A model generated the notes under the pieces. The model saw only the letters and a list, made by a program, of their open reading frames with translations, was not told the DNA's origin and ran no database searches. From Polyangium sp. 15x6 (lineage in GTDB: Bacteria > Myxococcota_A > Polyangia > Polyangiales > Polyangiaceae), in the NCBI RefSeq assembly GCF_029960785.1, contig NZ_JASBQE010000021.1, forward strand, positions 62,001-126,000: DNA of 64,000 bases, given 5' to 3'. Positions within the stretch are counted from its first letter, which is position 1. Each line of letters opens with the position of its first letter. Both the position numbers and the translations under genes were made by a program. Of this stretch, positions 24,831 through 46,287 are shown piece by piece.

Positions 24831-24831
24831 G
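24815..24831 (+). repeat. attL core repeat
   Basis: GAATCAGGTATTCTGAG; the last 13 bases recur exactly at 46275-46287 and the full 17 with one mismatch at 46271-46287. It marks the left boundary of the element and holds the stop codons of two convergent genes: the chromosomal lipoprotein on plus and the element's first gene on minus. Confidence 0.8.
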
Positions 24832-28151: not shown

Positions 28152-28234
28152 GGGTCTCCTTCGGGGCCAACGGGCCCGGGGTTGGTGTCCTCGGCTGGCA
28201 GAGGCCAGAAAAGCGAAATGAAGTGGCAACAAGA

Positions 28235-28689: not shown

Positions 28690-28692
28690 AGC

Positions 28693-29055
28693 TCACCTCC
28701 CAAGCTCTGCAAGTCGCGTGATGCCCGCCCTGAGCGCCTCATGCCGAGCGGACAGATCTGCCATCTCGCGGCGGAGCCGTTCGCACTCGGCAGAACGTTC
28801 CTCAAATGCCGCCTCCAGGTCCGCGACGCGCTGGCGCAGCTCGCGCACGGTTCGCACCGTGGGCTCGTGCGTGGGCGCGTCTCCGAGCTCGACGCCCAGA
28901 AGCGTGGCGACCGTTGCCGCTGCAGAAGGGTCGAGCGTCCGCTCTCCTGTAAGCCACCTATTGACCGTGGAACGGTTGACCCCAAGTCGGCGAGCCAGAC
29001 GAGCCTGCGAGAACCCTCGCTCGCTCATCGCCTTGCGAATCGCCTCGACATTCAC
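28693..29055 (-). CDS. XRE-type helix-turn-helix regulator with coiled-coil tail
   Basis: 120 residues from a GTG that overlaps the preceding stop (GTGA) and follows GGAG. A clear HTH lies near the start (GFSQARLARRLGVNRSTVNR, then WLTGERTLDP). Residues about 65-115 form a coiled coil (VRELRQRVADLEAAFEERSA). It is a candidate repressor of the element; operator words repeated in its intergenic regions are noted separately. Confidence 0.75.
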   Translation of the reverse strand: MNVEAIRKAMSERGFSQARLARRLGVNRSTVNRWLTGERTLDPSAAATVATLLGVELGDAPTHEPTVRTVRELRQRVADLEAAFEERSAECERLRREMADLSARHEALRAGITRLAELGR

Positions 29056-29912
29056 CCTTTTCTCCGCGACCACATCCAGGTGAGGAACCCCCCGGCGAGA
29101 GCGATACCGAGCGCGAGCCCGCCCCCGCCGCCCGACGACGAGCTCGGGACCGGCGCAGGCGCAGGGGCCGGCATTGGGCCGGGGGATGGGGTCGGCGCGA
29201 TGTTCGCGCGGGCGCTGCTCGCCGAAATCGGCAAGCTCGTCGCCTGGAGGAACGGCCCGCCTCGAAGAGCCGGCCGGGCGAGCTTGTGCGCATGGTCGCC
29301 ATGTTTGAGGCGATTCCCGTAGTCGAGCCAGAGGACGGAACCTCGGCTATGCGCGGCGACGGGCGCGGGCACACCCTCGACGTCACGCAGGGCCGGCGGC
29401 GCCTCGGGGCCGACATTCTCCAGGCCGAGGGCCGAGGCTAGGGGGCGGATAGACTCCGTCGCGCTCGGGTGCTCGGCCCGCGTGCTCCCAAATTTCCGGT
29501 AGCCCTCGTGCGTCGACGTCGTGAGCCAGGCTGGTAGGCCGCGCTCGAGCGCAAGCCGAAGCCAGGCCAGATAGCCTGGCTTCGGCGTACTCACGCCCCA
29601 AGCGCTGTAATACGCATCGAGCGCAAGGAGCCCGATTACCCGCGGGTCACGCGCCCACGCGGCCTGGCCGAGCAGGATTTCGATGGCACCGTGGGCCGCC
29701 GAGAAGCCCCCGATGACGATGCGGGGAGCGTCTGGCGCGAGTCTCGCCAAGGCGTTCGGCCCGAGTCCGACCGCCCACGCGCGGAACGCGTCGGAGTTCG
29801 TGCCATCGTTCGCTCCACGGTTGTACGTCCGGACGACCCATCCCGCGGGCATCGCAGGAGCGACGATGTCCGTGCTCACGGGCCCGAGCCAAAGAAAGAC
29901 GTTATCGCTCAC
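29052..29912 (-). CDS. Alpha/beta-hydrolase-like protein with C-terminal membrane anchor
   Basis: 286 residues from a GTG. The N-terminal 200 residues have an alpha/beta-hydrolase look: a strand, then GFSAAHG as the nucleophile elbow (Ser about 71), and later DHAHKL as a possible His loop. After that come a Pro/Ala linker (TPSPGPMPAPAPAPVPSSSS), a Gly run, one TM helix (LALGIALAGGFLTWMW) and a basic tail SRRKG. This is the layout of a surface or virion-anchored esterase. It may cut a host envelope polymer; this is inference. Confidence 0.6.
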   Translation of the reverse strand: MSDNVFLWLGPVSTDIVAPAMPAGWVVRTYNRGANDGTNSDAFRAWAVGLGPNALARLAPDAPRIVIGGFSAAHGAIEILLGQAAWARDPRVIGLLALDAYYSAWGVSTPKPGYLAWLRLALERGLPAWLTTSTHEGYRKFGSTRAEHPSATESIRPLASALGLENVGPEAPPALRDVEGVPAPVAAHSRGSVLWLDYGNRLKHGDHAHKLARPALRGGPFLQATSLPISASSARANIAPTPSPGPMPAPAPAPVPSSSSGGGGGLALGIALAGGFLTWMWSRRKG

Positions 29913-30410: not shown

Positions 30411-30659
30411 ATGGCCCAGCAGGTCTTTACGGAGCAAGAGAAGCAGCATGCCGCGCACGCCTATAACCTCATGATGCGACAGGTTGCGATGGGCCTGCCG
30501 CCCGCGCTCGCGGTGTCCGTTCTGGCCATGGCCGCGGGGTCGGTTGCGCATGACGCGGGCGTTCCGCGGGAAGACCTGCCGAACCTCATTCCCATCATGC
30601 AACAAGCGTTCGACGGGCAAGCGGCAGGAGCGAGCCACGCGAAGGCGGGCGGGAGATGA
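30411..30659 (+). CDS. Small helical protein, first of rightward block
   Basis: 82 residues, start fixed by GGAGG six bases upstream. Helical, with a moderately hydrophobic centre (PALAVSVLAMAAGSVAHDAG). No family recognised. ATGA overlap with the next gene. Confidence 0.6.
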   Translation: MAQQVFTEQEKQHAAHAYNLMMRQVAMGLPPALAVSVLAMAAGSVAHDAGVPREDLPNLIPIMQQAFDGQAAGASHAKAGGR

Positions 30660-31093
30660 GCGCGGAGCAAGACGCACCGCTCCCCCCCCGCGTGGCGGAG
30701 ATTCTGGAGGAGCGGGACGACTCGTCGAAGACGCCGCCCCCACCGCCGGAGCCGGCCGCGTCCGAGGCCGCGCCTCCGCTCAAGGCTGCGCCGCCGGATG
30801 AGACGAGGCAGGAGGCGGTGAGCAACGCAGACGAGCAGAGCTCGACGAGCGCCGCCGCTGCCGACCTGCTCGCCGTCCTTGGCGAGGCCGACCCGCTCCG
30901 GCAGCTCGTCGCCGAGGGCTACTCCCACGAGGAGCTGCTCGAGCACGAGGCGAACGACCCGAACCTTTGCCTGACGCCCGAGCAAGACGAGCTCCTCGCC
31001 CATCAAGCCCACCTCTTCGTCGCGGAGCCGTTCGCAGGGTTCGACGTCGACGAGCTCCTCGCCGAACACGACTACGCGCCCTTTGGCAATTAG
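30656..31093 (+). CDS. Acidic, largely disordered protein
   Basis: 145 residues, Pro/Glu/Ala-rich to residue 65 and then acidic helices (LRQLVAEGYSHEELLEHEAN; FDVDELLAEHDYAPFGN). It could be a scaffolding or DNA-mimic-like protein because of its charge, but there is no direct evidence. Confidence 0.55.
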   Translation: MSAEQDAPLPPRVAEILEERDDSSKTPPPPPEPAASEAAPPLKAAPPDETRQEAVSNADEQSSTSAAAADLLAVLGEADPLRQLVAEGYSHEELLEHEANDPNLCLTPEQDELLAHQAHLFVAEPFAGFDVDELLAEHDYAPFGN

Positions 31094-31184
31094 CCGACAG
31101 CCGAGCCTGACACCGTGGCGCACTGACTACGCCGCGCGGGCGAATGACTACGAATATGGGCGCTTGACAATTGCGCGTTGATAC

Positions 31185-31712
31185 TCATCCAACCCGCGCG
31201 CTCAGGCGAAAGCCCGCGCGCGCGGCCGCCATGAGCCTATCTACGGCGGCGACAAACGTGCCCTCGTCCGTCACATCGAACCCGAGCTCGCGCATCTTCT
31301 CCGCGCACGCGAGTGGCAGAAGCACGCCGCCACGCGCACGCCTCCAGGCCTCGTGCAGCTCTTCCGCGCGCTCGGGCGGAAGACGAAGCGCGATGACGAC
31401 ATCGACAACGGACTTGCCCTTCTCGAACATCTCGAACGCGGCGCCCGCAAGCTGACCGTTCGACATGCGCTTGACGAGCTCGGCATCTTTCATGCGCGCG
31501 ACGTCCTCGGCGCGGATGACGACAAGCGGTTGTTTGCCCCCGCCGGGGCGGCCTTTGAAGCCGCGAGCCTGCGAGACCGGCACAGGCGTGACGAGGCCCC
31601 TCCGTTCGAGCGTGAGCCACGCCGTGAGGCCGATGCCGAGCGCCTTCGCCGCTTGCGAACGGGTGAACCAACGTTTGACGTTCAGAGCCCCTAACTCGTT
31701 GATATTGCGCAC
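31185..31712 (-). CDS. Helix-turn-helix (MerR-like) DNA-binding protein
   Basis: 175 residues from a GTG. Residues about 13-45 (VKRWFTRSQAAKALGIGLTA, then WLTLERRGLVTPV) look like an excisionase/MerR-type winged HTH, followed by helical segments. It is the only leftward gene within the rightward half and is divergent from the virion-like genes across 98 bp that contain a short ATTCG/CGAAT inverted repeat. A regulator of late genes is plausible. Confidence 0.6.
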   Translation of the reverse strand: MRNINELGALNVKRWFTRSQAAKALGIGLTAWLTLERRGLVTPVPVSQARGFKGRPGGGKQPLVVIRAEDVARMKDAELVKRMSNGQLAGAAFEMFEKGKSVVDVVIALRLPPERAEELHEAWRRARGGVLLPLACAEKMRELGFDVTDEGTFVAAVDRLMAAARAGFRLSARVG

Positions 31713-31810
31713 GGTTGAAAGGGTACCAGAGCGATTCGTTTGGAGCCGAGCGAATGAATCACGGTCGGTGGGGTCTCGACGCCGCCCGGCCAGCCCGTAC
31801 CGTTACACCC

Positions 31811-32383
31811 ATGGCAGCGCAGATCGACAAGGGACGAATGGAGAGGTTCTATGAATCGGTGAAGGCGAAGACCAAGGACCAGGTCAACCGGCTCAAGAAC
31901 CGAATTGCCGCTGCCGATGCGACGAGCAAGCAGGTTGGCCTGGAGGTGCTTGCGGCCCTGGAAATCGCTGGCGTCGCCTACACGTTCGGCTTCATCAGGG
32001 GCTATTACGGCGAGAAAAAGCTCCTCAAGGTGCCCGTCGAGCTCTGGGCCACCGTCGCTTTTCACGGGGTCGGGCTCTACCTCGACTTCAAGGCTTCGCC
32101 GACGAAGGAAGGAGATTTCGACCGCATCCTCGCGAGGCAGCTCCACAACCTCGGCAACGGCGCCGCGGCGGCCTACGCCCACACGCTCGGCGCGTCGATG
32201 GGTGCAGAGATGCGGCAGGAGAAGTCCCAGTCCCAGTCCCAACAGCTCGTGTCGCAACCCGTCGCGGCCGGGATGCTGCCGAGCGTCGGCGGTCCTGCCC
32301 TGCCCGCGGGCAGGGCGCATGAGCCGTACATCAACGAACCCGTTACCCAAGCCGAACTGATGGGCATGGCGGGCCAGGTCTGA
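31811..32383 (+). CDS. Possible membrane-associated virion protein
   Basis: 190 residues from the ATG giving MAAQIDKGRMERFYESVKAK. Two moderately hydrophobic helices (VGLEVLAALEIAGVAYTFGF; ELWATVAFHGVGLYLDF) precede a Gln/Ser-rich tail. It stands immediately before the capsid candidate. Confidence 0.5.
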   Translation: MAAQIDKGRMERFYESVKAKTKDQVNRLKNRIAAADATSKQVGLEVLAALEIAGVAYTFGFIRGYYGEKKLLKVPVELWATVAFHGVGLYLDFKASPTKEGDFDRILARQLHNLGNGAAAAYAHTLGASMGAEMRQEKSQSQSQQLVSQPVAAGMLPSVGGPALPAGRAHEPYINEPVTQAELMGMAGQV

Positions 32384-32426
32384 ACCCCCGGCGCGCGGGT
32401 CTGCGCGTTTCTACAGGAGAACGTCG

Positions 32427-33260
32427 ATGTTTTACCCGGATGAGAACTACCCTTACGTTTCGGCGGGCGGTGACATCGTGATGGGCGGCGACCCGTTCCT
32501 CGATCAGGTGCTCCAGCCTGTGAGCACGGCGGGTCCGGAGATTTTCGTCGGTGCGCCCGTCGTCGACCCCGACATTGCCGCGCTGACAAACCTCGTTCAA
32601 ACGTCCGGCTGGGGCAACGTGGCCGTCGGCGGCCCGGACATCCTCGTCGGAGCTCCGTACGGAGCTCCGTATTTCGACGAATCCGTCATCTTCACGGGCG
32701 CGCCCGTGCCCCGGCAGCTGCGCTTTCCCATGCGCGCGAACCCGCAGCAGCAGCTCGCGGCGCAGCAGGCACAGCAGCAGCAGCTCGCGGCGCAGCAGGC
32801 GCAAACCCGCGCGCTGCAGCAGCAGAACGCCGCGTTGAAGGCCCAGCTAGCGCGCGCGCAGCAGGCGCCCGCGACGCGCCCCGTTGGCACGCCTGCGAGG
32901 GTCGAGGAGGTCGGGCGCGAGAAGTACCGCAAAATCCCGCTGCCGATCAGCTCGAACGGCGACGTTCTCGCCAACCAAACGATGCTCGTCACCGCACGGC
33001 CGCAGATGATGGCGAAGCCCTACCGACTCGTCATCGAAAACTCGCAGTGGTGGCGTATTCGCGACGTGAAGGTGGGGAACAAGAGCCAGTTCATCGCCGC
33101 TGGAACCCTCCCGGGCGTTCTGTTCTCGCCCGACGCGATGGACGTGACGCTCGTGGGCGACACCGCGCAGGTGTCGCAGGACATCATCATCGAAGTCGAG
33201 AACAAGACCGGCGCGGACCACAAGTTCGAAGGCGCCCTCATCTGCCACGTCGTCGACTGA
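32427..33260 (+). CDS. Candidate capsid protein (beta-sandwich C-terminal domain)
   Basis: 277 residues with GGAG before the ATG. Residues 1-100 are Gly/Pro-rich with repeated GAP motifs. Residues about 105-150 are a Gln/Ala coiled coil (QQQLAAQQAQQQQLAAQQAQ). Residues about 155-277 are all-beta with regular strand spacing (YRLVIENSQWWRIRDVKVGN, then SQFIAAGTLPGV; VSQDIIIEVENKTGADH), about the size of a single jelly roll. Single jelly-roll proteins form the shells of some tailless membrane-containing phages. The assignment is structural guesswork from sequence pattern and position. Confidence 0.5.
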   Translation: MFYPDENYPYVSAGGDIVMGGDPFLDQVLQPVSTAGPEIFVGAPVVDPDIAALTNLVQTSGWGNVAVGGPDILVGAPYGAPYFDESVIFTGAPVPRQLRFPMRANPQQQLAAQQAQQQQLAAQQAQTRALQQQNAALKAQLARAQQAPATRPVGTPARVEEVGREKYRKIPLPISSNGDVLANQTMLVTARPQMMAKPYRLVIENSQWWRIRDVKVGNKSQFIAAGTLPGVLFSPDAMDVTLVGDTAQVSQDIIIEVENKTGADHKFEGALICHVVD

Positions 33261-33296
33261 CCAGGGCTACCAGCGGGAGCACGAGAAAGGCGCGCC

Positions 33297-33782
33297 ATGA
33301 GTGGTTATCGTGTCACGTTCGAGTCGTCTCTGTTTTCGCCGCAAGGCGCGGACAGGGAGGAGTCGCATGAGACCTTGCAGCTCTATCTGGACACGCTTGT
33401 CCGGGCAAACTGCATCATCATGGCGCGCCGGCAGCTCCCCTTGCTGTACGCGTCCGGCGCGCGCTACGAGGCGGAGCCGCGCGGCCAGGAAAACTGGCAG
33501 GACGCACTCCGCGTCCTCGCTCGGAAGCGCGCCGACTGCGAGGACCTCGCGAGCTACCGCGCGGCCGAGCTGCGGACGCGGTTCGGCGTGTCGCAGGCCC
33601 GGGCCATCTTCACGTTCTGGCAGAGCCCGCAGACGCTCGAACAGCGCTACCACTGCCTCGTGCGCTACCCCATGCCCCCCACGGGGTCGCGTCCCTACGT
33701 TCACCCGTCGGCGCGTGTCGTCGACGGCAACCTGCTCGAGGAGGACCCCTCCAAGGTTCTCGGCATGCGAGGAGCTTTCTGA
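33297..33782 (+). CDS. Transglutaminase-like cysteine peptidase
   Basis: 161 residues. WQDALRVLARKRADCEDLAS contains the Trp and catalytic Cys (about 81) of bacterial transglutaminase-like peptidases; the His follows at about 119 (YHCLVRYP), with a possible Asp at about 143. It lies between capsid-like and LysM genes, so a role in capsid maturation, cross-linking or wall degradation is likely. It overlaps the next ATG by one base. Confidence 0.7.
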   Translation: MSGYRVTFESSLFSPQGADREESHETLQLYLDTLVRANCIIMARRQLPLLYASGARYEAEPRGQENWQDALRVLARKRADCEDLASYRAAELRTRFGVSQARAIFTFWQSPQTLEQRYHCLVRYPMPPTGSRPYVHPSARVVDGNLLEEDPSKVLGMRGAF

Positions 33783-34792
33783 TGCTCGCCGCCCTGATTC
33801 CGCTGCTCGCGCTCGTCGGCGTGGGCATTGCCGTCGCTTCGCGTGGTGCGGCAGAGCCTGCGAAACCGCCGCCCGCGCCGACGCCGACGGGCCCGGCGAC
33901 GATTCCCGGGCAGCCCACCGCGGCAGAACTCACGTTCTTCGACATTCGCGCCGACGGCACGCGCGTGTGGAAGCCGCAGATGCGCGATGCGATTTTGCAG
34001 TACCTCGCGCAGTGGGGGTTCGTCCTCCTGCAGCCGAACGACCCGACGTACATTCAGCTCGTGCCGCGCAAGACGACGGCCGACGCGACGGCGAAGGACT
34101 GGGCCGAGCTCTACGCCGCGACGAAAGTCGTCCTGACCACGCGCTTTCTCATGGGCGACCAGAGCGTTCCGAAGGTTCTCCGAGCGGTCGCGCCCGGCGA
34201 AGAGGCCTTATGGGCTGGCGCGAGCTCGCAGGCAACCTTCGCGGTGCTCCTGGAGCGGGGCGCCGTGCCTCAGCAGCCGAGCCCGCAGCTCCCGAACCTG
34301 CCGGCCCCGCCCCCAGCGCCCGCAACGCCCGATGCGTTCACGCCGCTCGGCCCCGAGCTCGCCGACCAGGTGCGCGCCCTCATGCGGGACGCGACCGACC
34401 CAACGAAGCTCGTGCTCATGGCCGACAGCCTGGAGGGCAAAGAGCCGGTGAAGTACGGGCCCGCGGCCGAAGCGCTCCGGAAGCGCGCGAAGGAGCTCGA
34501 AACGCAGGCCGAGCTCGCGGCCATCAACTCGGGGCGCATTTACATCGTGCGGCCTGACGACCTGCAATCCGAGCTTGCGCAATGGTACACCGGTGACGCG
34601 AACCGGTGGCGCGAGCTCGGGAAGACGAACCCGAAGCTCCGCCTCATGCAGGGCGACGATGGGAACGGCCGCAAGTTCCAGTATTTCGCGCCGTGGGTTG
34701 CGGGCGACAAAATCGTCCTGCCCCCGGGCTGGGACGTGTCCAAAGGTTTGCCGCCGCGGCGCCCTCGGGGCGAACCGAAGGCGGCCGCGTGA
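33782..34792 (+). CDS. Membrane-anchored protein with C-terminal LysM-like domain
   Basis: 336 residues. An N-terminal TM helix (LAALIPLLALVGVGIAVASR) is followed by a Pro linker, a central domain at about 45-150, a second Pro linker, a helical part, and a C-terminal LysM-like fold (IYIVRPDDLQSELAQWYTGD, then WRELGKTNP and WVAGDKIVLPPGW). LysM binds peptidoglycan. Anchor plus LysM suits a virion membrane protein that engages the wall during entry. Confidence 0.65.
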   Translation: MLAALIPLLALVGVGIAVASRGAAEPAKPPPAPTPTGPATIPGQPTAAELTFFDIRADGTRVWKPQMRDAILQYLAQWGFVLLQPNDPTYIQLVPRKTTADATAKDWAELYAATKVVLTTRFLMGDQSVPKVLRAVAPGEEALWAGASSQATFAVLLERGAVPQQPSPQLPNLPAPPPAPATPDAFTPLGPELADQVRALMRDATDPTKLVLMADSLEGKEPVKYGPAAEALRKRAKELETQAELAAINSGRIYIVRPDDLQSELAQWYTGDANRWRELGKTNPKLRLMQGDDGNGRKFQYFAPWVAGDKIVLPPGWDVSKGLPPRRPRGEPKAAA

Positions 34793-35574
34793 AGAAAGGG
34801 AGCCCGGTCGTGTACAAGTCAACCGTCACCCTCACGTTGGGCTCAGGGAGAACGCTTCCCGTCGAGCTCATGACCGCTCGCCGAGACGGCGATTGGTTCG
34901 TCGGCGCCACGTTCACCATCAATGGGAGCCCTATCCGGCTCGCGGCGACGGCGAGCGAAGCGACGGTCCGCGCAGCGCTCGCAAAGCTCGGCCACATCGC
35001 CGAGCCGAGCACGGGCGGCTTTTTCGACACCATCGCGAATGCGATTTCGAAGTTCGCCCGCTCGAAGGCCGTCCAGTCGGTATTGCAAGGCGTGGCCACG
35101 GTCGCGAAAAACCCCATGGTGCGTGACCTCGCGAAGGCGTGGCCGGCCATGGGAACCGCGCTCGACTACATCGGCAAGGGCGCGGAGGCGGCCGCGAGCG
35201 CGCAAAGCCTCATCATGCGGTCGCAGAATGGCGACGCCAAGGCGAAGGCGGCCATCGCCAGCGTGTCGACCGCAGCGCGCCAGGGCAACCCGAACGCGCA
35301 GGTCATGCACCGTGTCCTTGGCTCGGTCTACGGGCGGCACAAGCAAGAGCAGGCCGCGCAAGCGCAAAGGCCGCCGCCGCCGCGGCCTGCTGCCCCGCCG
35401 CCAAGCGCGCCGCGGCTGCGGTTCCCCATGTACCCCCAGCCCGCGCCGCCGAACCCCTACGGCCCGCAGACGCAGCCGGTCTACCCCTACGGCCCGCCGG
35501 TGTCCGCCGGTGCGGCGCTGGACGCGGACCCGGACCTCATCGCCCTCGCACGTACCGTGCGTGCGACGGGCTAA
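34789..35574 (+). CDS. Virion-like protein with Pro/Tyr-rich tail
   Basis: 261 residues from a GTG overlapping the previous TGA. The N-terminal beta part (STVTLTLGSGRTLPVELMTA) is followed by helices with Ala/Gly (VQSVLQGVATVAKNPMVRDL), then a Pro-rich, Tyr-rich tail. It could be a minor capsid or internal protein; no family is recognised. Confidence 0.55.
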   Translation: MKKGSPVVYKSTVTLTLGSGRTLPVELMTARRDGDWFVGATFTINGSPIRLAATASEATVRAALAKLGHIAEPSTGGFFDTIANAISKFARSKAVQSVLQGVATVAKNPMVRDLAKAWPAMGTALDYIGKGAEAAASAQSLIMRSQNGDAKAKAAIASVSTAARQGNPNAQVMHRVLGSVYGRHKQEQAAQAQRPPPPRPAAPPPSAPRLRFPMYPQPAPPNPYGPQTQPVYPYGPPVSAGAALDADPDLIALARTVRATG

Positions 35575-35601
35575 CGCAGGCTCACGACGAGAGAAACGAA
35601 C

Positions 35602-35913
35602 ATGTACCAAGCTGCAGCAGCAACGGTTCTGGGGTCGACCACCCCCACCTTCCGACGGAACCAGGGGTTCGCAGCCGCCATCGTGCGCAACGGCGCGGGC
35701 GACTACACGCTTACCCTCGACGAGGCGTTCGCGGCCGACGAACTCAATATCCAGTGCACTGGCGCGGAGGTGGGCGCCAGCGCCGTGTGTAGCGGCACGG
35801 CCCACGGCGGGACGGCGACACTGACGACGATTCGGGTGAACACCATTGGCGACGGTGGCACGCCCGCGGACGTCGACTTCTTCATCTCCGTATCCGCCTA
35901 CGACCCGGATTGA
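35602..35913 (+). CDS. Small all-beta protein, capsid or spike candidate
   Basis: 103 residues, ATG after GAGAGAAACGAAC. Regular beta strands throughout (YTLTLDEAFAADELNIQC; ATLTTIRVNTIGDGGTPADV; DFFISVSAYDPD) with no helix predicted by eye. Proteins like this are common as phage decoration or spike proteins. Confidence 0.55.
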   Translation: MYQAAAATVLGSTTPTFRRNQGFAAAIVRNGAGDYTLTLDEAFAADELNIQCTGAEVGASAVCSGTAHGGTATLTTIRVNTIGDGGTPADVDFFISVSAYDPD

Positions 35914-35924
35914 TGAGGTAGCGC

Positions 35925-36614
35925 GTGGAAGGCCGTCAAGACGTTCTCTCCGTTGCAGACGGCCGCCATAGCGGCGGATGGGCCGAGCTGAAGCCCGGCG
36001 GCGCTGACGTCAGCGTCATGAAGGCGGACGGCAAAGACCAGAGCCCGCAGGTGCTCACGATTGCGTGGAGCACGCAGATTTTTGCCGGCCGCCCCGAGCC
36101 GCTCGCAAGCCCCAAGCCATTCAAGGTGTTCGGCGTTCTCGACTGGGGGCAGGTCGGCGTCCAGCACCGAGCGACCTTCGATTGGGGGCGAGGCGGCGCC
36201 CTCACCATCACGGCCACGGCGTTCCACCTCCAGGCCCGAAACCTCGCGGCCGACGGGCCCACCATCACGGTGCGCGCCACGGCGAGCTACGCGCCTCGGC
36301 CTGGTCACGAGGCAAACCGCGTGACCCTGACCGACCGGTTCGAGGCGCTCGCTCCAGGCGCGCCGTTCGTCACGCCCGTGCCCCCGTTCGCACGCATGGC
36401 GACGGCGCTTCTCGAAGATTGGAGCGTGCTCGACCGCGGGGAGGTGACCGTGCAGTTCCTCGGGCTCGACAACGTGACGCTGTACGAATACACGCCGAAA
36501 AACTGCCGCATCGCCGACTCGGTCGAGATCCCGAACGACGTCGTCTTTGTCCAGGTTACGAAAACCGCGCCGGGTCCCGTCAATGGCGCGCTCTGCTTTC
36601 ACCTGTCGCTATGA
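35925..36614 (+). CDS. Beta-rich virion-like protein
   Basis: 229 residues from a GTG with GAGG upstream. Long beta strands dominate (VLTIAWSTQIFAG; GALTITATAFHLQARNLAAD; ITVRATASYAPRP; GEVTVQFLGLDNVTLYEY). With the 32427 and 35602 products it makes three beta-rich candidates for capsid, penton or spike. Its stop overlaps the hydrolase start (ATGA). Confidence 0.55.
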   Translation: MEGRQDVLSVADGRHSGGWAELKPGGADVSVMKADGKDQSPQVLTIAWSTQIFAGRPEPLASPKPFKVFGVLDWGQVGVQHRATFDWGRGGALTITATAFHLQARNLAADGPTITVRATASYAPRPGHEANRVTLTDRFEALAPGAPFVTPVPPFARMATALLEDWSVLDRGEVTVQFLGLDNVTLYEYTPKNCRIADSVEIPNDVVFVQVTKTAPGPVNGALCFHLSL

Positions 36615-39154
36615 AGGCCAGCGAGTTCCTTGCTACAATTCGAGGGCAATCAGCGAGCGCCGCGCGGGACGCGAAGGTCGTGGAGGCGGCGCGTGCTGGC
36701 GGCCTCGTCGAGTGGCCCTGGGTCGAGGTGCCGCTCAAGAACGGTCGCGGCGCGTTTCGTGTGGCGAGCGACTACGTCAGCATCGGTGAGCACTACCCGA
36801 CCCGAAAGTCGAACCGGGGCGATGATTGGGTCCGCGTCCCGATGGGAGGAGCCGCGGCGCAGTCCATCGCCGACTTGGTAGGCGCGGTTTTGCCGTCGGG
36901 CTACATGGTGGACCTGATTTGGGATGCTGCAGAGCTGAAACTGCGCCCCATCACGTTTCCCACCGCTGGGATGATGACGACGGAGAAGTTTGTCGAGCAT
37001 CACCGCCGCATCGAAGAGCAGCGCGGCGGACGCGATGGGCTCGTCGCGGGCATCAAAAAAGACACCGTCGTCACGAACAAGCTCCTGAAGAAGCCCCAGG
37101 CCACGGCCATTTACGGCTGGCATCACCCGGACGGCAAACCCATTCAGCCGGTTTCGACGGCGCACGGCGAGCCGTGGTATTCCGACTACAGCCACGGCGT
37201 GCGGCTCGTCGCGCCGGAGATGGTGCTCGACGGCCGCACGGTGCTCGTGCAGGACGTGCTCCGGGACCCGAGCCTCGCCGCAGTGCTCACCGGTGGCGCC
37301 GCCTGGGGCGCGCGCCACGACGCGCCGAACGACGGCGTGCTCCAGGTCGTGCGCTACGGCAGCCAGCCGCGTGCGCCCGAGGTCGCACAGGTGATGCCCG
37401 TGGCGAGCTCGACCCCGAGCTCGGGGCGAGACCTCGGGGTCGCGGCGGTCGAGTGGTGTCTCGCAGAACTCGCGGCCGGCGTGCGAGAAGAGCCGCCGGG
37501 CTCGAACACAAGCCCACGCATTCGAGAGTACCTCGCGCCTGCCCGCCGTCGAGAGACCGGCAAGCTCGTCGGCCTCACCGCGGGCGAGTGGTGTGCCGCT
37601 GGGCAGTCGGCCGCGCTCGCGGCCGTTGCCCGTCCTGGCGAGTACGTGCCCCACGGCTACCGCATCGCGGTGTGGGAGCTGCGGGAGGATGCGAAGGCGA
37701 CGGGCGCGTGGGTGCCCATCGCGGATGTCCGGGCGGGCCGGTACCGCATCCAGCGCGGCGACCTCCTCGTCTCGACGCGCGGCGCGCCCGGCCTCGGTCA
37801 CGTCGCACGCGTCGACGTTCCCCCGAACGACCACGGCGAGGTCGTCACCATCGGCGCGAACGAAAACAACGCGTGGACGCGCCGCACGCGGAACCTAAGC
37901 GAGCCCGAGCTCGAGGGCGTCATCAAGTATCGCGACTATCGGCCCGTGATGACGCTCGATGCTCCTGCGCCCGCGAATGTCGCCGCTCGCCCCGCGCCCG
38001 CGCCTTCGACGCCCTCCCCCGCACCGGGGCAGTCGATTGACGCGTGGGCGCGGGGCGTCTTTCTCCAGGCCTGGGAGAAGGAGTTTCCCGGGACGCAGCC
38101 GACGGCGCAGGAGTTCCAGGGCATCATGGCCATCGCGCGTTACGAGCGCATGTACGGCCACGCTGCGAAGCCCGAGGCCGGGCGCGGGGCGAACAACTGG
38201 GGCGGCGTCCAATGCCCGAGCCGCGCTCCATGCAAAGAGGGATGCTACCCCGGCGGCGACAAGGACAAGGCCGGACAGGGGTATGCCGCGTGCTTCAAGA
38301 AGTACGACACGCCGCTCGACGGCGCGCGCCACCTCATCCAGCTCGTGACGCGACGCCGGCCACACGTACACGCAGCGCTTCGGTCTGGCGACCTTCTACG
38401 CGTCGGGACGGAGATGGGAACGAAGCGGACCATCGACGGGAAGGATTACCTCGCCTACCACGAGACCGACCCGCCGGTGTACGGCCGCAACATCTTCCAC
38501 CATGCAAAGGAGCTCGCGAAAGCTCTTGGACAGCCGCTTGCCGTTCGCCTCGGCGAAACCACGGCAAGTTCAAGCGCTTCCGTGACGGACCCGCCGGCGG
38601 CGGTGCGCCCCGTCGCGCCCACGACGACACCCGCGAGCTCGAGCTCGTCGAACGCGTCCAGCATGCAGGCGGGCATTCGCGCCATTGTGGCGTCGCGTGC
38701 GCCGACCCTCGCGCGGGTCGTCGTGGGCGCGCCCATTGCGCCGTGCGAACTCGCTCCGGCGGTCACGACGGGCGTCGCGTCGTCGCTTTCGGTTCGTGAC
38801 TACGCCGAGCGCGTCAATGACTACATTCGCGCTCTCCACGCCATCATCGAAGAGGAGCGGAAGATTCGTCAGCAGCCCGACGGGTTTCCGTGGAATGAGT
38901 GGGCGGCTTTTCGAGTCTCGTGGTCCGAGGCCTATTTTCAGGTGTCCCACGCCCTCATTCCGTGGTTTGATGACAGCGTGGTGAAGACCTACGACGGGCT
39001 CAGCCGGAAGTGGGCTGACGTCGTGCAAAAGCACTACGGCCGCCGCCCGGCAACCCCACTCCTGGACCCGCCGTCGCCGATTCCCAAGGCGGTCTGGTAT
39101 GCGCTTGGCGGGTCGCTCGCCGTCGGTCTGCTCACCCGTTTCGTCATGAGGTGA
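36611..39154 (+). CDS. Three-domain cell-wall hydrolase with C-terminal TM
   Basis: 847 residues. Domain 1 (about 1-235) has the pattern AIYGWHHPDGKPIQPVS then YSDYSHGVRLVAPEM, a conserved domain of unknown activity with paired His/Asp. Domain 2 (about 270-450) looks like a CHAP/NlpC-type amidase: LTAGEWCAAGQSAA for the Cys and GLGHVARVD for the His. Domain 3 (about 475-640) resembles a muramidase/glucosaminidase (NNWGGVQCPSRAPCKEGC, then ACFKKYDTPLDGARHLIQL). A Ser-rich linker and one C-terminal TM (AVWYALGGSLAVGLLTRFVM) follow. It likely opens peptidoglycan at entry or exit. Confidence 0.65.
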   Translation: MKASEFLATIRGQSASAARDAKVVEAARAGGLVEWPWVEVPLKNGRGAFRVASDYVSIGEHYPTRKSNRGDDWVRVPMGGAAAQSIADLVGAVLPSGYMVDLIWDAAELKLRPITFPTAGMMTTEKFVEHHRRIEEQRGGRDGLVAGIKKDTVVTNKLLKKPQATAIYGWHHPDGKPIQPVSTAHGEPWYSDYSHGVRLVAPEMVLDGRTVLVQDVLRDPSLAAVLTGGAAWGARHDAPNDGVLQVVRYGSQPRAPEVAQVMPVASSTPSSGRDLGVAAVEWCLAELAAGVREEPPGSNTSPRIREYLAPARRRETGKLVGLTAGEWCAAGQSAALAAVARPGEYVPHGYRIAVWELREDAKATGAWVPIADVRAGRYRIQRGDLLVSTRGAPGLGHVARVDVPPNDHGEVVTIGANENNAWTRRTRNLSEPELEGVIKYRDYRPVMTLDAPAPANVAARPAPAPSTPSPAPGQSIDAWARGVFLQAWEKEFPGTQPTAQEFQGIMAIARYERMYGHAAKPEAGRGANNWGGVQCPSRAPCKEGCYPGGDKDKAGQGYAACFKKYDTPLDGARHLIQLVTRRRPHVHAALRSGDLLRVGTEMGTKRTIDGKDYLAYHETDPPVYGRNIFHHAKELAKALGQPLAVRLGETTASSSASVTDPPAAVRPVAPTTTPASSSSSNASSMQAGIRAIVASRAPTLARVVVGAPIAPCELAPAVTTGVASSLSVRDYAERVNDYIRALHAIIEEERKIRQQPDGFPWNEWAAFRVSWSEAYFQVSHALIPWFDDSVVKTYDGLSRKWADVVQKHYGRRPATPLLDPPSPIPKAVWYALGGSLAVGLLTRFVMR

Positions 39155-39158
39155 AACC

Positions 39159-39998
39159 GTGGACGCTGCAACGGTTGCGCAATGGCTCGACGAGGTGCGG
39201 GGCAGACACAAGGCGTCGGGGACGCTCACTCTCACCCTCAACAACTATCGCGACGACGGGCGCGGGGTGCAGCTCGACGCATGGGACCTTCCCCAGGACC
39301 TCGACGTCGCCGAGCTCTGGCGAAGCATGTCGGAGCTCGCGCGCCTCGAGGCCGATTGCCTGAAGGGCGTGCAGACCTACGCCATCTGCGTCCACGCAGG
39401 CGGCGCGCTCGTCGCGCGCAGGCTGTTCCAGCTTGAGGGCGGTAGGGCAGACGTGCCCCTGCGACGCGAGGGAGACGGCGCGCACGAGGCCTTGCAGCTC
39501 CTCCTCAAGCATATTGAGGGGAAGGAAGCGGCCATCGCCCGAAAAGATGATCTCATCATGAAAATGGCGACCGGCTACGTTGGTGGCTTCGCGAAGGAGC
39601 TCGAACGCCTGCAGACCCGGAACGAGGCGCTCGAGCTCCGCGACATGACCCGTGCCGAGGGGTACGAAAAGCTGCTCTCAAAGCAGCACGAGCGCGAGCT
39701 CGCGGCGAAGAAGACCGAGCACGGCATGCAAATGACGCAGGAGCTCGTGCACGGCGTGCGCATGCTCGCGCCGTTCATCGGGAACAAAATCATTGGCGAG
39801 AAGGCCCTGCCGACGGGCACGCTCTCGCCCAAAGAGCAGGCATTGCAGGCGTTACTGGAGTCAGTCACGCCCCAGCAAATGCAGCAACTTCAAACCGTCC
39901 TGAACCCCTACCAGGCCATCGCCATCATGGAGTTCTGGCAGGACTACGTCGGCAAAAAGGACGAAACGCCTGCGGACAAGGCGCAGGAGAAGCGGTGA
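39159..39998 (+). CDS. Coiled-coil structural protein
   Basis: 279 residues from a GTG with GAGGT seven bases upstream. An N-terminal alpha/beta part of about 95 residues is followed by long coiled-coil helices (GGFAKELERLQTRNEALELR; EQALQALLESVTPQQMQQLQ). No nucleotide-binding loop is present, so it is not the packaging ATPase. A scaffold or internal-membrane protein is possible. Confidence 0.55.
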   Translation: MDAATVAQWLDEVRGRHKASGTLTLTLNNYRDDGRGVQLDAWDLPQDLDVAELWRSMSELARLEADCLKGVQTYAICVHAGGALVARRLFQLEGGRADVPLRREGDGAHEALQLLLKHIEGKEAAIARKDDLIMKMATGYVGGFAKELERLQTRNEALELRDMTRAEGYEKLLSKQHERELAAKKTEHGMQMTQELVHGVRMLAPFIGNKIIGEKALPTGTLSPKEQALQALLESVTPQQMQQLQTVLNPYQAIAIMEFWQDYVGKKDETPADKAQEKR

Positions 39999-40002
39999 CG
40001 CA

Positions 40003-40365
40003 ATGGCGACGGACAAAGAGCTGCAGCAAATGGCGAAGCAACTCGACGCGGCAGCGCGTCGCAAGCGTCGCACGGGCCCGAAGAAGAAGCCGGCCGCGAA
40101 GAAGAGGGCCGCGAGCGCGCCGACGAAACGCCGCAGTCCACGCGCCAGCGCCCCGAAGCGAGCCAAGCGCGCCACGAAGAAGCGCGCCCCGAAAGGGTGC
40201 TCGACGAACGCGCTCACGGTCATGCTTCCCAAGGGCTCGCACCTCTCCGTCGTCGGCCAGACGTTCGAAGTCGTCGGAAAGGGCGGCGCTCCGTCGAAGG
40301 GCTCCGCTCCGAGCAAACCCAAAGCGTCGCCTCGGAAGGGGCGAAGGAAGGCCAAGCGGTCGTGA
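40003..40365 (+). CDS. Histone H1-like basic protein
   Basis: 120 residues dominated by Lys/Arg/Ala/Pro (RRTGPKKKPAAKKRAASAPT, KRATKKRAPKG, SPRKGRRKAKRS), with a short beta motif at about 70-92 (LTVMLPKGSHLSVVGQTFEV). Such proteins neutralise DNA. In a virion gene block it may condense the packaged genome, as core proteins do in some tailless viruses. Confidence 0.65.
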   Translation: MATDKELQQMAKQLDAAARRKRRTGPKKKPAAKKRAASAPTKRRSPRASAPKRAKRATKKRAPKGCSTNALTVMLPKGSHLSVVGQTFEVVGKGGAPSKGSAPSKPKASPRKGRRKAKRS

Positions 40366-40610
40366 ACAACAAGCCCAAGTTTTACCTGGACCCCCAGCAG
40401 TTCGGCGCGGGAACCGAGGACCTCGCGCAGAAGCTGCAGGCGCGTTTCGCTGACGTCCGCATCGCCGTCGGACCGAAGCAGTACAACGCGAACGCCCCGT
40501 CCGAGCACCGGGGCCGCATCGAGCAGCTCCAGGACTACGCCGAGCACGTCGGCGGCGCAGCCACGACGGGCCGCTCGCCGAGCTCGCCCGCGCCGAGCGG
40601 CGGAGGCTGA
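40362..40610 (+). CDS. Small element protein
   Basis: 82 residues from a GTG overlapping the basic protein stop (GTGA). MNNKPKFYLDPQQFGAGTED is followed by a helical, partly disordered C-terminus rich in Ser/Gly. Possibly a minor structural protein. Confidence 0.5.
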   Translation: MNNKPKFYLDPQQFGAGTEDLAQKLQARFADVRIAVGPKQYNANAPSEHRGRIEQLQDYAEHVGGAATTGRSPSSPAPSGGG

Positions 40611-40613
40611 CCC

Positions 40614-41102
40614 GTGGACCGGGGCCTCGACGCCATCGTCGCAAGCCGTCGCGGTGGGCAACCGGCGCCGAGGCCTGCCAGCGTCGTCCACGTCGGTGGC
40701 GACGCCGGGACGGTTGCAATCATCGCGAGTCGCCGTCCGGACGTCGCGACCGGCTTCGTGTCGCTGGGGCAGGCGACGGACCCGCTCATCGTTGCGGTGC
40801 ACGAATCCCTTTCGAGGTCGCGCGACCGCATCTACACCACCACCACGCCCCTTCCCGCGGAGCAGGTCGCGCAGTTCGAGCAGCTCTGGGGGGAATGGGT
40901 GCCGTTCTTTACGGTGCCGTTCGTCCGCGGGCCGAACGCCCGGGAGCGCGCGGAGAAGTTCGCGGCATCGGCGAACTATTGGGAGAAGGTGCTCGATGCG
41001 CGGGAGGTACAGCCGGAGGCGCCGCCGTCACGGTGGCCGCTCGTCGTGGCCGCGGTGCTCGGCATCGGGGTGGTCGCCGCGGCTGCCTACAAGCCCAGAT
41101 AG
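40614..41102 (+). CDS. Single-TM protein ending the virion-like block
   Basis: 162 residues from a GTG three bases after the previous stop. The soluble domain has alternating strands and helices. One C-terminal TM (WPLVVAAVLGIGVVAAAAY) ends in KPR. It converges with the second leftward block at 41102/41115. Confidence 0.55.
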   Translation: MDRGLDAIVASRRGGQPAPRPASVVHVGGDAGTVAIIASRRPDVATGFVSLGQATDPLIVAVHESLSRSRDRIYTTTTPLPAEQVAQFEQLWGEWVPFFTVPFVRGPNARERAEKFAASANYWEKVLDAREVQPEAPPSRWPLVVAAVLGIGVVAAAAYKPR

Positions 41103-41114
41103 ACCGCGGCCCGT

Positions 41115-41291
41115 CTACTCGTCCGCTTCGTCGTCCTGCTCTTCGTACCATTCATCGTGACACGTGCATTCGCACGGGTCGTCTTCTGGCGCCTCGAACG
41201 TGGGTTCGAGAGCCTCTTTGATGTCGACACGGTACCGAACGCGAATGCACTCATGCGGGCTCGTTCTCGGGCACGCGCAACGGTCGGTCAC
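41115..41291 (-). CDS. Small acidic Cys-rich protein
   Basis: 58 residues; GTG overlaps the previous TGA and is preceded by AAGGAGG. Four to six Cys (DRCACPRTSPHECI; CECTCHDEW) and an acidic tail. Zinc binding is possible. Function unknown. Confidence 0.55.
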   Translation of the reverse strand: MTDRCACPRTSPHECIRVRYRVDIKEALEPTFEAPEDDPCECTCHDEWYEEQDDEADE

Positions 41292-41620
41292 GGTGCACCT
41301 CCTTCGACGCACTCACCGACCATGCAAATCCCTGCGTCCCCCAAGCACGGGGCGTTGTCTGCGGTCCACACGACGACGCACGCGCCCAATACGCAGGTCG
41401 GGGCGAAGCATGGGCCGGGCGGGCAGCAGTCGGCCGTGACGTCGCAGTGGGCCCCGTCGTCCGGCGGAACGAGCGTCGGGCACGTCTCCGCGCCAGGCTC
41501 GACGTACACGTCGGCGCTGCAACCCGCGACCAGCGTGCCCAGCACGAGGCCGAGCACAAGCCCCCCCAACGCGCACCAGCGCAAGGGTTCTTGGTGGGTC
41601 ATCTTCGCGGCGCGGGTCAT
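41288..41620 (-). CDS. Element-encoded Cys-rich lipoprotein
   Basis: 110 residues; ATG overlaps the preceding stop (ATGA). Signal and lipobox LGLVLGTLVAGC, then many Cys in the mature part (HCDVTADCCPPGPCF, CVLGACV, GICMVGECV). Lipoproteins in prophages often modify the host surface or block superinfection; that is a possibility only. Confidence 0.6.
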   Translation of the reverse strand: MTRAAKMTHQEPLRWCALGGLVLGLVLGTLVAGCSADVYVEPGAETCPTLVPPDDGAHCDVTADCCPPGPCFAPTCVLGACVVVWTADNAPCLGDAGICMVGECVEGGAP

Positions 41621-41868
41621 GACGTGAACGCCTTTCGCACGGCCTCTTCGTCGCGCCGCTGTTTCGCGGCCTCGTCCAGCACAGCGAAACACAGCGAGCG
41701 CAGGCTCGACGATGGCATCGGGATGCACCTCGTCGGGTCCACCTGAATCGCCTCGCAAATGCGGCGGACGTCGAGCATCCAGTCGGCGGGATCCTGCACG
41801 CGTTTCGCGATGGCCCGTGCCATCTCGTCGCTGAGTGCTCCAATTGCGCTTCCCATCAACGTCGCCAT
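41617..41868 (-). CDS. Small helical protein
   Basis: 83 residues from the ATG following GGAGGG. MATLMGSAIGALSDEMARAI, then a helical body with two Cys. No family recognised. ATGA overlap with the lipoprotein gene. Confidence 0.5.
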   Translation of the reverse strand: MATLMGSAIGALSDEMARAIAKRVQDPADWMLDVRRICEAIQVDPTRCIPMPSSSLRSLCFAVLDEAAKQRRDEEAVRKAFTS

Positions 41869-41885
41869 ATTCCCTCCTCGTTTGG

Positions 41886-42164
41886 TCAATCAATATCCAC
41901 GCGAACATCACAGCGACGGACGCGCGCGTGGCCGCACCCGTCGAGAAACAGCACGTAGAGAAACCCCGGCGTTACCCACGCCGTGAGGGGCGGTGCGAGC
42001 GTCACTGCCGCTCGTCCCGCGTGCGGCCCGCCGACGATGCGGACGGGCGTCAAGTGCGGCAGGTCCGGCAGAGCTGCCCACCAAAGCCAACCGGGATAAA
42101 AGCCCAGCGACGCCACTGCCCCGAGCAACCCGAGGAAGAGCACGATGACGAGCACCTCAGCCAT
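41886..42164 (-). CDS. Small membrane protein
   Basis: 92 residues with AAGGAGG before the ATG. One or two N-terminal TM segments (VLVIVLFLGLLGAVASLGFY), then a small beta domain (VRIVGGPHAGRAAVTLAPPL) resembling an SH3-type barrel. Confidence 0.55.
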   Translation of the reverse strand: MAEVLVIVLFLGLLGAVASLGFYPGWLWWAALPDLPHLTPVRIVGGPHAGRAAVTLAPPLTAWVTPGFLYVLFLDGCGHARVRRCDVRVDID

Positions 42165-42177
42165 GCGTGCCCCTCCT

Positions 42178-42504
42178 TCAATGCGTCACCTGGGCTCGTG
42201 CCCCCCGGACCATGTCCCGCAGCCTCATGAGGAGCGGCGCGCGGTCGTTGAGGAACGTGGTTCCCGGCCCGTATTCGCGCCAAAGGCGCCCGAGCTCGTC
42301 GCGCTGCTTGATGGTGCTCTCGATGTGGCGTACGGCGGCGTGGTAGCTGCCGGCGTGCGCCGCGGCGAGCGTCACGCAATATTCGAAACCAAACGGGTTC
42401 GGGTGGCTCGTCGGGCGTTCCTCGCTGTAGATGCCGACGCGCGTGATGATGCAAAGCGGCCCGATGCGGAGCACGTGAGCCACAAGAAACGCGTGCGTAG
42501 TCAT
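42178..42504 (-). CDS. Element protein of unknown function
   Basis: 108 residues, ATG preceded by GGAGGG. Alpha/beta N-terminus (AFLVAHVLRIGPLCIITRVG), then helices (HIESTIKQRDELGRLWREYG). No motif recognised. Confidence 0.5.
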   Translation of the reverse strand: MTTHAFLVAHVLRIGPLCIITRVGIYSEERPTSHPNPFGFEYCVTLAAAHAGSYHAAVRHIESTIKQRDELGRLWREYGPGTTFLNDRAPLLMRLRDMVRGARAQVTH

Positions 42505-42520
42505 TCTGTCCGCCCTCCGA

Positions 42521-42775
42521 CTACAGAACTCGAAACAGTCGTAGCTGCTCGCGAGGAGCGCCAGGCCTTCGCCACGGAATGCGCGCCTGCGCGAGCTGCC
42601 GCCTCACTTCGGCCAACCAAACACGGTAGGCCCATCCGCAGCGCTCCCCGAACGGGTAGGCCGCGCGAATGGCGCGCCGAACCTCCAGGGGCTCGGCGCG
42701 CCGGTGTTGAGCGAGGACCTCGGCGACAATAGGCGCCGCCTTCGTCCTCCAGGTCTCACGCTCCGGCGAAGGCAT
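42521..42775 (-). CDS. Small phage-type protein with YPFGER motif
   Basis: 84 residues; ATG lies 20 bases inside the end of the upstream gene. The core AAYPFGERCGWAYRVWLAEV resembles a small conserved protein seen in many phages and plasmids (aYPFGxR..yPYkvWl), function unknown. This is pattern memory, not a search. Confidence 0.6.
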   Translation of the reverse strand: MPSPERETWRTKAAPIVAEVLAQHRRAEPLEVRRAIRAAYPFGERCGWAYRVWLAEVRRQLAQARIPWRRPGAPREQLRLFRVL

Positions 42776-45763: not shown

Positions 45764-45775
45764 GTCGTCCTCCCT

Positions 45776-46272: not shown

Positions 46273-46287
46273 AACAGGTATTCTGAG
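46271..46287 (+). repeat. attR core repeat
   Basis: GAAACAGGTATTCTGAG matches attL except at the fourth base. It marks the right boundary of the element. Sequence after it should be the original DNA downstream of the lipoprotein gene. Confidence 0.8.

Follow-up and report, generated by a model that had tools for sequence, protein, structure and literature searches.

A candidate integrated tailless virus of Polyangium sp. 15x6 and its relatives among Myxococcota

Tailed viruses make up the majority of the phages described so far; the known single-jelly-roll membrane viruses include examples from salt lakes and hot springs. In the Halopanivirales/Helvetiavirae of the realm Singelaviria (HHIV-2, HCIV-1, P23-77), for which an FtsK/HerA-type packaging ATPase is a hallmark, the plan of HHIV-2 and HCIV-1 combines a small VP7 of one jelly roll with a larger VP4 of two stacked domains, as outlined in excerpts of PMC6414509. 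According to the excerpted text of PMC8812541, packaging ATPases are lacking in the archaeal virus SPV1 and in FLiP, a tailless membrane phage of Flavobacterium, the latter being set apart by its description in parts of PMC6260650 and PMC6356626, which give it a double jelly-roll capsid protein and a ssDNA genome. The unclassified SSIP-1 is likewise a tailless, membrane-containing phage (PMC6356626, in excerpt), with a transglutaminase-like structural protein, gp34, and an AAA_25 ATPase, gp40.

Here we describe an element of 21,456 bp (24,832-46,287) that is integrated, with sharp borders, in a window of 64,000 nucleotides, by which we mean the whole stretch of Polyangium sp. 15x6 DNA that was analysed. 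Its G+C content is 0.675 as against 0.701 in the remaining window, and it contains the complete set of genes that an earlier note on this DNA had read as a single rightward run at 30411-41102, extending well beyond them on both sides (Table 1). The left att repeat overlaps the stop codon of an ORF at 24096-24830. The site is free of the element in all five other genomes of the genus, the element thus being present in one genome out of six; in four of the five the flanks adjoin with an overlap of 17-20 bp, and in the fifth the right flank has diverged. Site-specific integration, att repeats and an empty site, as expected of a temperate provirus, are accordingly all found here, and a distant relative of the integrase (30% over 188 aa, blastp E=3.5e-15) is encoded on a contig, L074 (G400), that carries the same gene module. 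An integrase with att sites would equally suit a conjugative or mobilisable integrative element, but no relaxase or type IV secretion protein was matched by Pfam among 20 element proteins, and we have rejected that explanation as scarcely credible.

Table 1. Features of the integrated element, in window coordinates
Feature	Coordinates	Strand	Basis
134-aa protein, possible replication-initiation-like domain (weak)	24818..25222	-	phrog_678 E=0.028
attL core, 13-bp direct repeat	24819..24831	.	repeat search, empty sites in genus
tyrosine integrase	25693..26715	+	Pfam PF00589 E=2.6e-27; phrog_1
CI/Cro-like repressor	28693..29073	-	HTH_3 E=9.2e-12; phage repressor PHROGs
small protein, first of rightward run	30411..30659	+	ORF; no PHROGs match
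acidic 145-aa protein	30656..31093	+	ORF
conserved divergent protein adjoining module	31185..31712	-	L020 relative in same place, 33.5% over 161 aa, E=1e-16
family 31715, hydrophobic in its middle part; candidate major membrane protein	31811..32383	+	hydropathy; 29/37 loci
candidate capsid protein; low-complexity arm, single jelly-roll-like domain at C-terminus	32427..33260	+	AlphaFold, structural neighbours, loci
transglutaminase-like Cys-His-Asp protein	33297..33782	+	Pfam below cut-off; conserved residues
N-terminal TM helix; C-terminus possibly wall-binding	33782..34792	+	hydropathy; relative in L053
conserved protein (family 34789), Pro-rich tail	34789..35574	+	relatives in L016-L019, L058, L060, L065, L068
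103-aa predicted beta protein	35602..35913	+	ORF
candidate large capsid protein, two tandem beta-sandwiches	35925..36614	+	AlphaFold; 24/37 loci
847-aa multidomain protein	36611..39154	+	phage match of N-part; L053 match
conserved protein (family 39159), coiled-coil-like by eye	39159..39998	+	relatives in 9/37 loci
very basic 120-aa protein, 31% Lys+Arg	40003..40365	+	composition
small protein, start uncertain	40359..40610	+	ORF
162-aa protein with C-terminal TM helix	40614..41102	+	hydropathy
leftward gene block incl. 795 aa (43376-45763) and 139 aa (45776-46195)	41115..46195	-	ORFs
attR core, same 13-bp repeat as attL	46275..46287	.	repeat search, empty sites

The element is probably an integrated and apparently intact temperate virus making tailless particles, known here from its sequence and from models, and the best reading of its type is a vertical jelly-roll virus, perhaps with an internal membrane; the particles, the membrane and the packaging route are what we infer. 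The tailless lineage proposed in the earlier note gains support because jelly-roll-like models, the lack of tailed-phage hallmarks, the integrase with its att sites and the presence of the module in three viral contigs coincide. No account of such a lineage was found in the literature searched, which was mainly open-access.

Three all-beta proteins had been read from the sequence of the run, and AlphaFold models bear this out for the C-terminal domain of the 32427 protein and for the 35925 protein; the 35602 protein matched no Pfam or PHROGs family at E<=0.03. The 32427 model (pLDDT 85.9) contains a single jelly-roll-like domain at residues about 160-277, and the 35925 model, of middling quality (pLDDT 74.9, pTM 0.63), two beta-sandwiches at residues about 10-125 and 128-229. 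In a structural neighbour search the 32427 domain lies near capsid chains of HHIV-2 (6h82_b, Z 7.8, rmsd 5.4 over 111), SPV1 (6oj0_A, Z 7.3, rmsd 3.4 over 113) and HCIV-1 (6h9c_M, Z 6.2, rmsd 5.0 over 112), and the C-terminal half of 35925 near P3 of PRD1 (1hqn_B, Z 7.9, rmsd 3.5 over 100) and, at Z about 7, capsid chains of picornavirus, IBDV and PBCV-1. All viral capsid neighbours of both models thus stand at Z below 8, values near 7-8 being, by the tool's own note, the usual top score for models without a clear match, and non-viral domains score equally or higher: PHM at Z up to 8.0 for the 32427 domain, GOLD at Z 9.5 for the N-terminal half of 35925 and the bacterial mitogen 1pm4 at Z 8.2 for its C-terminal half. 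Parts of tailed viruses also occur among the neighbours of the 32427 domain (a baseplate cup at Z 7.0, the HFTV1 turret at Z 6.8), and the Foldseek lists for the models include tail fibres, the search of the 32427 domain against the PDB giving no match at E<=0.001. By sequence, alignment A3 of the capsid candidates found nothing at E<=1 among solved structures, and alignment A4 retrieved from the PDB non-viral rows only, the best (E=0.0067) being a designed protein. Searches of BFVD with the models gave weak and mixed matches, many of them nameless, and no SSIP-1 protein was named among the 50 best matches listed per query.

The pairing of one single and one tandem candidate is similar to the plan of HHIV-2 and HCIV-1. 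The element nevertheless differs from the Halopanivirales/Helvetiavirae in that it has no candidate for their hallmark ATPase, its capsid candidates have no sequence similarity to solved capsid chains, and its host, like those of its relatives, belongs to the Myxococcota. SPV1, whose capsid chain is a neighbour of the 32427 domain at the Z given and which likewise lacks a packaging ATPase, differs as an archaeal virus and in the same absence of a sequence match to the candidates in the PDB set.

The transglutaminase-like peptidase of the earlier note, the 33297 protein, falls below the Pfam cut-off (Transglut_core, E=0.013), and comparison with 50,697 phage records brought up nothing at E<=1. 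Of 43 aligned rows, the window row counted, 41 retain its Cys, 41 its His and 42 its Asp. A profile of its family, made free of SSIP-1, scores SSIP-1 gp34 at 32.5 bits (E=4.2e-10, 114 sequences), a match that the control marks as unspecific: since three transglutaminase-like frames of unrelated context, from genomes of relatives (L044, L045, L047), reach 66-70 bits with this profile and so outscore gp34, the link, as judged from these scores, is at the superfamily level only, and gp34 is no closer to 33297 than other transglutaminase-like proteins are. Weak matches of the profile (about 22-30 bits) are probably other transglutaminases. Several SSIP-1 proteins have by eye a C-terminal hydrophobic tail, a likeness to the element, which differs in encoding no counterpart of the ATPase gp40. 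Profiles of the 31715, 32427, 35925 and 39159 families found nothing at E<=10 among 57 SSIP-1 proteins, nor did blastp match SSIP-1 gp43 to the giant proteins of relatives. A gp34 scan of viral contigs returned SSIP-1 alone. Stretches of a 4.5-kb fecal phage and of Geoglobus acetivorans pleomorphic virus 1 are similar to gp34 as well.

The remaining genes of the run fit the earlier reading unevenly. The 33782 protein, taken for a TM-LysM protein, does begin with a hydrophobic helix and has no LysM match in Pfam, and the 40614 protein, which ends in such a helix, agrees with the further single-TM proteins of that note. The three-domain wall hydrolase with a TM segment, at 36611, was not borne out: Pfam gave no match, the lone PDB match is at chance level and the hydropathy scan flagged no TM. 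This protein has one partial match among the 50,697 phage records (32% identity over about 236 aa of its N-part, to a 485-kb uncultured phage) and another, of 37% over 169 aa, to an L053 protein, and on inspection by eye it is possibly a cell-wall hydrolase. The divergent 31185 protein is likely DNA-binding as its sequence reads, and the 40003 protein a possible DNA-condensing candidate. The 31715 protein has a weak scaffolding match in PHROGs (E=0.092). The 30411 and 30656 proteins have no relatives among the loci searched, and three proteins scanned from the leftward block gave no Pfam match at E<=0.05.

Searches of 20 element proteins with Pfam and 20 with PHROGs brought up, at E<=0.001, no terminase, portal or tail gene, in agreement with the earlier note, and no HK97 capsid gene. 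As regards the P-loops, whose absence that note had also claimed, a six-frame scan of 23-47 kb for [GA]xxxxGK[ST] showed no P-loop ATPase; it gave two matches only, the first lying within the integrase and the second on an antisense reading. That the integrase and repressor match PHROGs, mostly of tailed phages, and that the coil region of 32427 has a weak tail-fibre match (E=0.029) could be taken as signs of a tailed phage that has lost its packaging and tail genes. Yet the three viral relatives (G466, G467, G468), like SSIP-1, have no match to TerL or to an HK97 capsid and share the core order, so that such a remnant, now very improbable, was rejected.

Related loci number 41, a count that takes L017 and L018 as one, sets aside L067 as a duplicate of L053 and leaves out the copies L054, L055, L056, L063 and L064. 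Core genes recur in fixed order in most of them, and wherever the 31715 and 32427 families are both present (30 of the 41) their order and strand are the same. Among the 37 loci fetched by the 33297 profile alone, 31 have the 32427 family by iterated profile, 29 have 31715 and 24 have 35925, counts to be read with the fact that these profiles were built over the same loci and that low-complexity arms can inflate the matches of 32427; its jelly-roll-domain profile without iteration finds 18, as against 31. The recurrence of other families in loci fetched by 33297 exceeds chance on these profile counts, and the relatives, as recognised in this way, are spread across the Myxococcota. A weak extra match of 32427 at 27762-28832 of G466 and its match in G139 are probably of low-complexity origin. 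Contig G451 carries the 31715 and 32427 families.

The module is present in three IMG/VR viral contigs, with two to six families recognised in each; scans of viral contigs with single window proteins or with alignment A5 yielded nothing useful. G466, of 29.9 kb with identical 97-bp ends (a terminal repeat), is apparently a complete circular virus genome and has six core families in common with the element. Up to nine matches of the 33297 profile in one genome show the module to be multi-copy in some genomes, as would suit a domesticated, non-viral structure of myxobacteria, gene-transfer-agent-like or secretory, built from beta-sandwich proteins; the presence of the element in a single genome of the genus, together with its integrase and att repeats and the empty sites elsewhere, and of the module on viral contigs, one with a terminal repeat, makes this improbable.

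Among the 56 ORFs called in G466, none has a Walker A motif and none matches AAA_25, in keeping with the claimed absence of an ATPase; that claim does not extend to all relatives, a RadA-like (AAA_25) ATPase adjoining the module in L020, L058 and G467. The element, at 21.5 kb, is smaller than all three viral contigs, and the Pfam and PHROGs scans recognised no replication gene in it, which together with the missing ATPase would agree with a satellite or cryptic element having its own shell genes and depending on a helper virus to be packaged or replicated. We think this unlikely, though less so than domestication, because the element has its own core of capsid-like genes and has six core families in common with the apparently complete G466, which likewise shows no ATPase.

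In the virus that we favour, 32427 and 35925 would be the small and large capsid proteins, like VP7 and VP4 of HHIV-2 and HCIV-1, and 31715 with the other TM proteins would reside in an internal membrane, which the hydrophobic helices suggest. The 33297 protein may form part of the virion, perhaps as a peptidase that processes other proteins or opens the wall, and the 36611 protein may open the host wall. DNA would be packaged without a virus-encoded motor, either by condensation, perhaps through the basic 40003 protein, with the shell assembling around it, or by a borrowed host ATPase. Such ATPase-free packaging has precedent because SPV1 and FLiP, in the excerpts of PMC8812541 cited above, have no packaging ATPases.

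More tentatively, and with somewhat less than even confidence, the Myxococcota proviruses may represent a deep, undescribed and widespread lineage of tailless vertical jelly-roll viruses, having a shell of one single and one tandem jelly-roll protein and a transglutaminase-like virion protein, of which some members, G466 included, would package without a virus-encoded ATPase as a bacterial counterpart of SPV1. If this is true, viruses of a related kind would be present throughout a large phylum of bacteria, some genomes having several copies, and the question of how a DNA virus fills its shell without a motor of its own would become testable. It would also bear on the idea, discussed in the excerpted text of PMC8812541, that packaging ATPases are later additions to jelly-roll lineages.

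The rightward gene run that the earlier note had placed at 30411-41102 is present, but it forms only part of a longer element (24,832-46,287; 21,456 bp), which has a G+C content of 0.675 against 0.701 in the remainder of the window and lies within contig C133 of the 13.4-Mb host genome, taken to be that of a myxobacterium. This element is mobile and integrated, with a conserved capsid-like core, and no packaging motor was found in it. On the left, DNA matches to all five other genomes of the genus compared end at window positions 24,831-24,834; on the right, the match restarts at 46,271 in four of the five, the flanks overlapping there by 17-20 bp, and G178, the fifth, has a diverged right flank and no element at the site. 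The left copy of a 13-bp repeat (see table) overlaps the stop codon of an ORF at 24,096-24,830, and in the genome G440, the only one read by eye, the identical 13 bp connects the left and right flanks. The element encodes a tyrosine integrase (Pfam) and a CI-like repressor (Pfam and PHROGs).

Portal, terminase and tail genes had been reported missing, and the profile scans agree: neither Pfam nor PHROGs, each run on 20 element proteins in sets differing by one protein, matched a terminase, portal or tail family, or one of relaxases or secretion proteins, at E<=0.001. The coil region of the candidate capsid protein 32427 matched a tail-fibre PHROG at E=0.029 and, below the cut-off, Pfam DivIC at E=3.3e-5; the candidate membrane protein 31715 matched a scaffolding PHROG at E=0.092. 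A GxxxxGK[ST] loop had likewise been reported missing; a six-frame search of 23-47 kb for [GA]xxxxGK[ST] revealed no P-loop ATPase and gave two matches, of which one falls within the integrase and the other is antisense.

The module was recovered in three IMG/VR contigs; it is also present in other genomes and in eight loci of genome_contigs (by title five myxobacterial, two from Deltaproteobacteria and one from Alphaproteobacteria). A five-row profile of the transglutaminase-like Cys-His-Asp family 33297 matched 28 of the 317 genomes surveyed in the class (E<=0.001) and 37 of the 377 surveyed in the phylum (E<=1e-5), 29 of these 37 outside the class, with at most nine matches per genome across the phylum; the weakest are probably other transglutaminases. 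This profile fetched 37 distinct loci; 32427 was recognised by iterated profiles in 31 of them, 31715 in 29, 35925 (the second capsid candidate) in 24 and 39159 in nine, the count for 32427 varying with iteration (18/37 with a profile of its modelled domain alone); the iterated matches extend across its entire C-terminal domain. Adding four loci that the 32427 protein had first detected brought the set compared for gene order to 41. Both 31715 and 32427 are present in 30, invariably as 31715-32427 on one strand, followed by 35925-33297 in 14, by 33297-35925, as in the window, in nine, and without 35925 in seven; 33297 alone was recognised in three of the 41, and some contigs stop within the module.

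Several other features of these loci may be recorded. One genome (G507) has nine 33297-profile matches, and the three of its loci that were fetched (L123, L124 and L136) all carry the four-gene core. Locus L020 (genome G158) has tandem 32427-type genes (12944-14683 and 14125-14910) with nearly identical C-terminal domains and differing N-terminal arms. A giant methyltransferase/helicase-like protein lies close to the module in L125, L128, L129, L130 and the viral contig G468 (L098), where it has 2,350 aa and about 43% identity over 197 aa to the other copies. In the window, the N-terminal part of the putative wall protein 36611 (36602-37327; query residues 7-242) is 32% identical to the 485-kb uncultured phage LR745208.

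Of the viral contigs, G466 (29,914 bp) has ends identical over 97 bp, which suggests a complete circle, and six module families were recognised in it (31715, 32427, 33297, 34789, 35925 and 39159). Among its 56 called ORFs (44 scanned with PHROGs, 10 with Pfam), methyltransferase, nucleotide kinase, wall-binding and transglycosylase families were found; every tail-labelled PHROGs match falls on the transglycosylase protein, and one endolysin family matched by the wall-binding proteins carries the head and packaging label. Walker A is absent from the 56 called ORFs, and a six-frame scan gave one match, whose 106-aa frame runs opposite to called genes. A 779-aa protein (L091, 3870-6209), made by eye of GGGxxN-type repeat units, is possibly a trimeric spike. 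G467 (49.6 kb, G+C 0.37) and G468 (77.3 kb, G+C 0.69) both have replication genes, and two and four module families, respectively, were recognised in the parts of them designated L061 and L062; no end repeat was found in either. Profiles of TerL (phrog_2) and the HK97 capsid (PF05065), which matched 13 and four of 14 control genomes, respectively, gave no match in these three contigs or in the tailless membrane phage SSIP-1 (NC_017983).

A 33297 profile free of SSIP-1 (43 rows), tested on the 57 SSIP-1 proteins and their 57 reversed counterparts, had gp34, annotated as structural, as its sole match (32.5 bits, E=4.2e-10). Seven loci have transglutaminase-like matches outside the profile, three with frames at 66-70 bits and one at 32.4 bits; since the frames of three loci score well above gp34, the latter is, as judged from sequence, a superfamily relative of 33297 and not a near one. 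Otherwise gp34 matched, in the phage collection, a 4.5-kb fecal phage and Geoglobus acetivorans pleomorphic virus 1, both with weak similarity, and four other module profiles had no match among the 57 proteins. SSIP-1 gp40 belongs to the broad RadA/AAA_25 family, and an ATPase of this type adjoins the module in L020 and L058 and occurs in G467; none was found in the window element or in G466. A GIY-YIG-like protein (by eye) adjoins the module in L020 (1261-1827), L058 (15361-15759) and L019 (near 5375), in the first two as a neighbour of the RadA-like ATPase.

The jelly-roll search proposed earlier, made with models of 32427 and 35925, did return viral capsid proteins, but non-viral neighbours score as high or higher. 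The 32427 C-terminal domain (12-row alignment; pLDDT 85.9, pTM 0.75) is predicted to have six strands and a short helix; the 50 VIA-align entries listed include 14 of PHM (best Z 8.0), counted among cellular double jelly-roll proteins in the available text of PMC8812541, six capsid proteins with jelly rolls, from small or tailless viruses (see table), and also tailed-virus parts (baseplate cup, Z 7.0; HFTV1 turret, Z 6.8). Foldseek alone gave nothing for this domain against the PDB at E<=0.001. The matched HHIV-2 chain is probably the penton protein, because it covers residues 39-173 and residues 1-40 of that protein are described as disordered in the part of PMC6414509 available.

Repeat at the element borders and viral neighbours of the 32427 domain
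Feature	Window positions	Z	rmsd	Aligned	Source
13-bp repeat	24,819-24,831 and 46,275-46,287				repeat search
HHIV-2		7.8	5.4	111	VIA-align
Satellite tobacco mosaic virus		7.4			VIA-align
SPV1		7.3	3.4	113	VIA-align
FBNSV		7.2			VIA-align
HCIV-1		6.2	5.0	112	VIA-align
XSV		6.2			VIA-align

The 35925 model (8-row alignment; pLDDT 74.9, pTM 0.63) consists of two beta-sandwiches, the N-terminal half having GOLD and SIDT domains as neighbours (best Z 9.5, rmsd 2.5, 95 aligned) and the C-terminal half the bacterial mitogen 1pm4 (Z 8.2, rmsd 2.9, 89 aligned), PRD1 P3 (Z 7.9, rmsd 3.5, 100 aligned) and, at Z of about 7, picornavirus, IBDV and PBCV-1 capsid proteins and PNGase F. In the same portion of PMC6414509, VP4 of HCIV-1 and HHIV-2 has two stacked jelly rolls and VP7 one, a plan which the modelled 35925/32427 pair appears to match; this is a resemblance and not a proof, because Z values below 8 may reflect a common arrangement.

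Searches of the available literature turned up no account of a virus of this kind in myxobacteria; Helvetiavirae are now placed in the realm Singelaviria, according to the available text of PMC12714852. We consider the element to be, with fair probability, a tailless jelly-roll virus, in which the integrase and repressor would establish lysogeny and, on induction, membrane proteins would collect a vesicle that the 32427 and 35925 proteins would then tile; for an internal membrane in the virion the chances seem about even. The DNA could be condensed and the shell assembled around the condensate, or it could be packed by a host ATPase, and packaging free of an ATPase is put forward more tentatively than the membrane. 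The Cys-His-Asp and putative wall proteins may work in maturation or entry.
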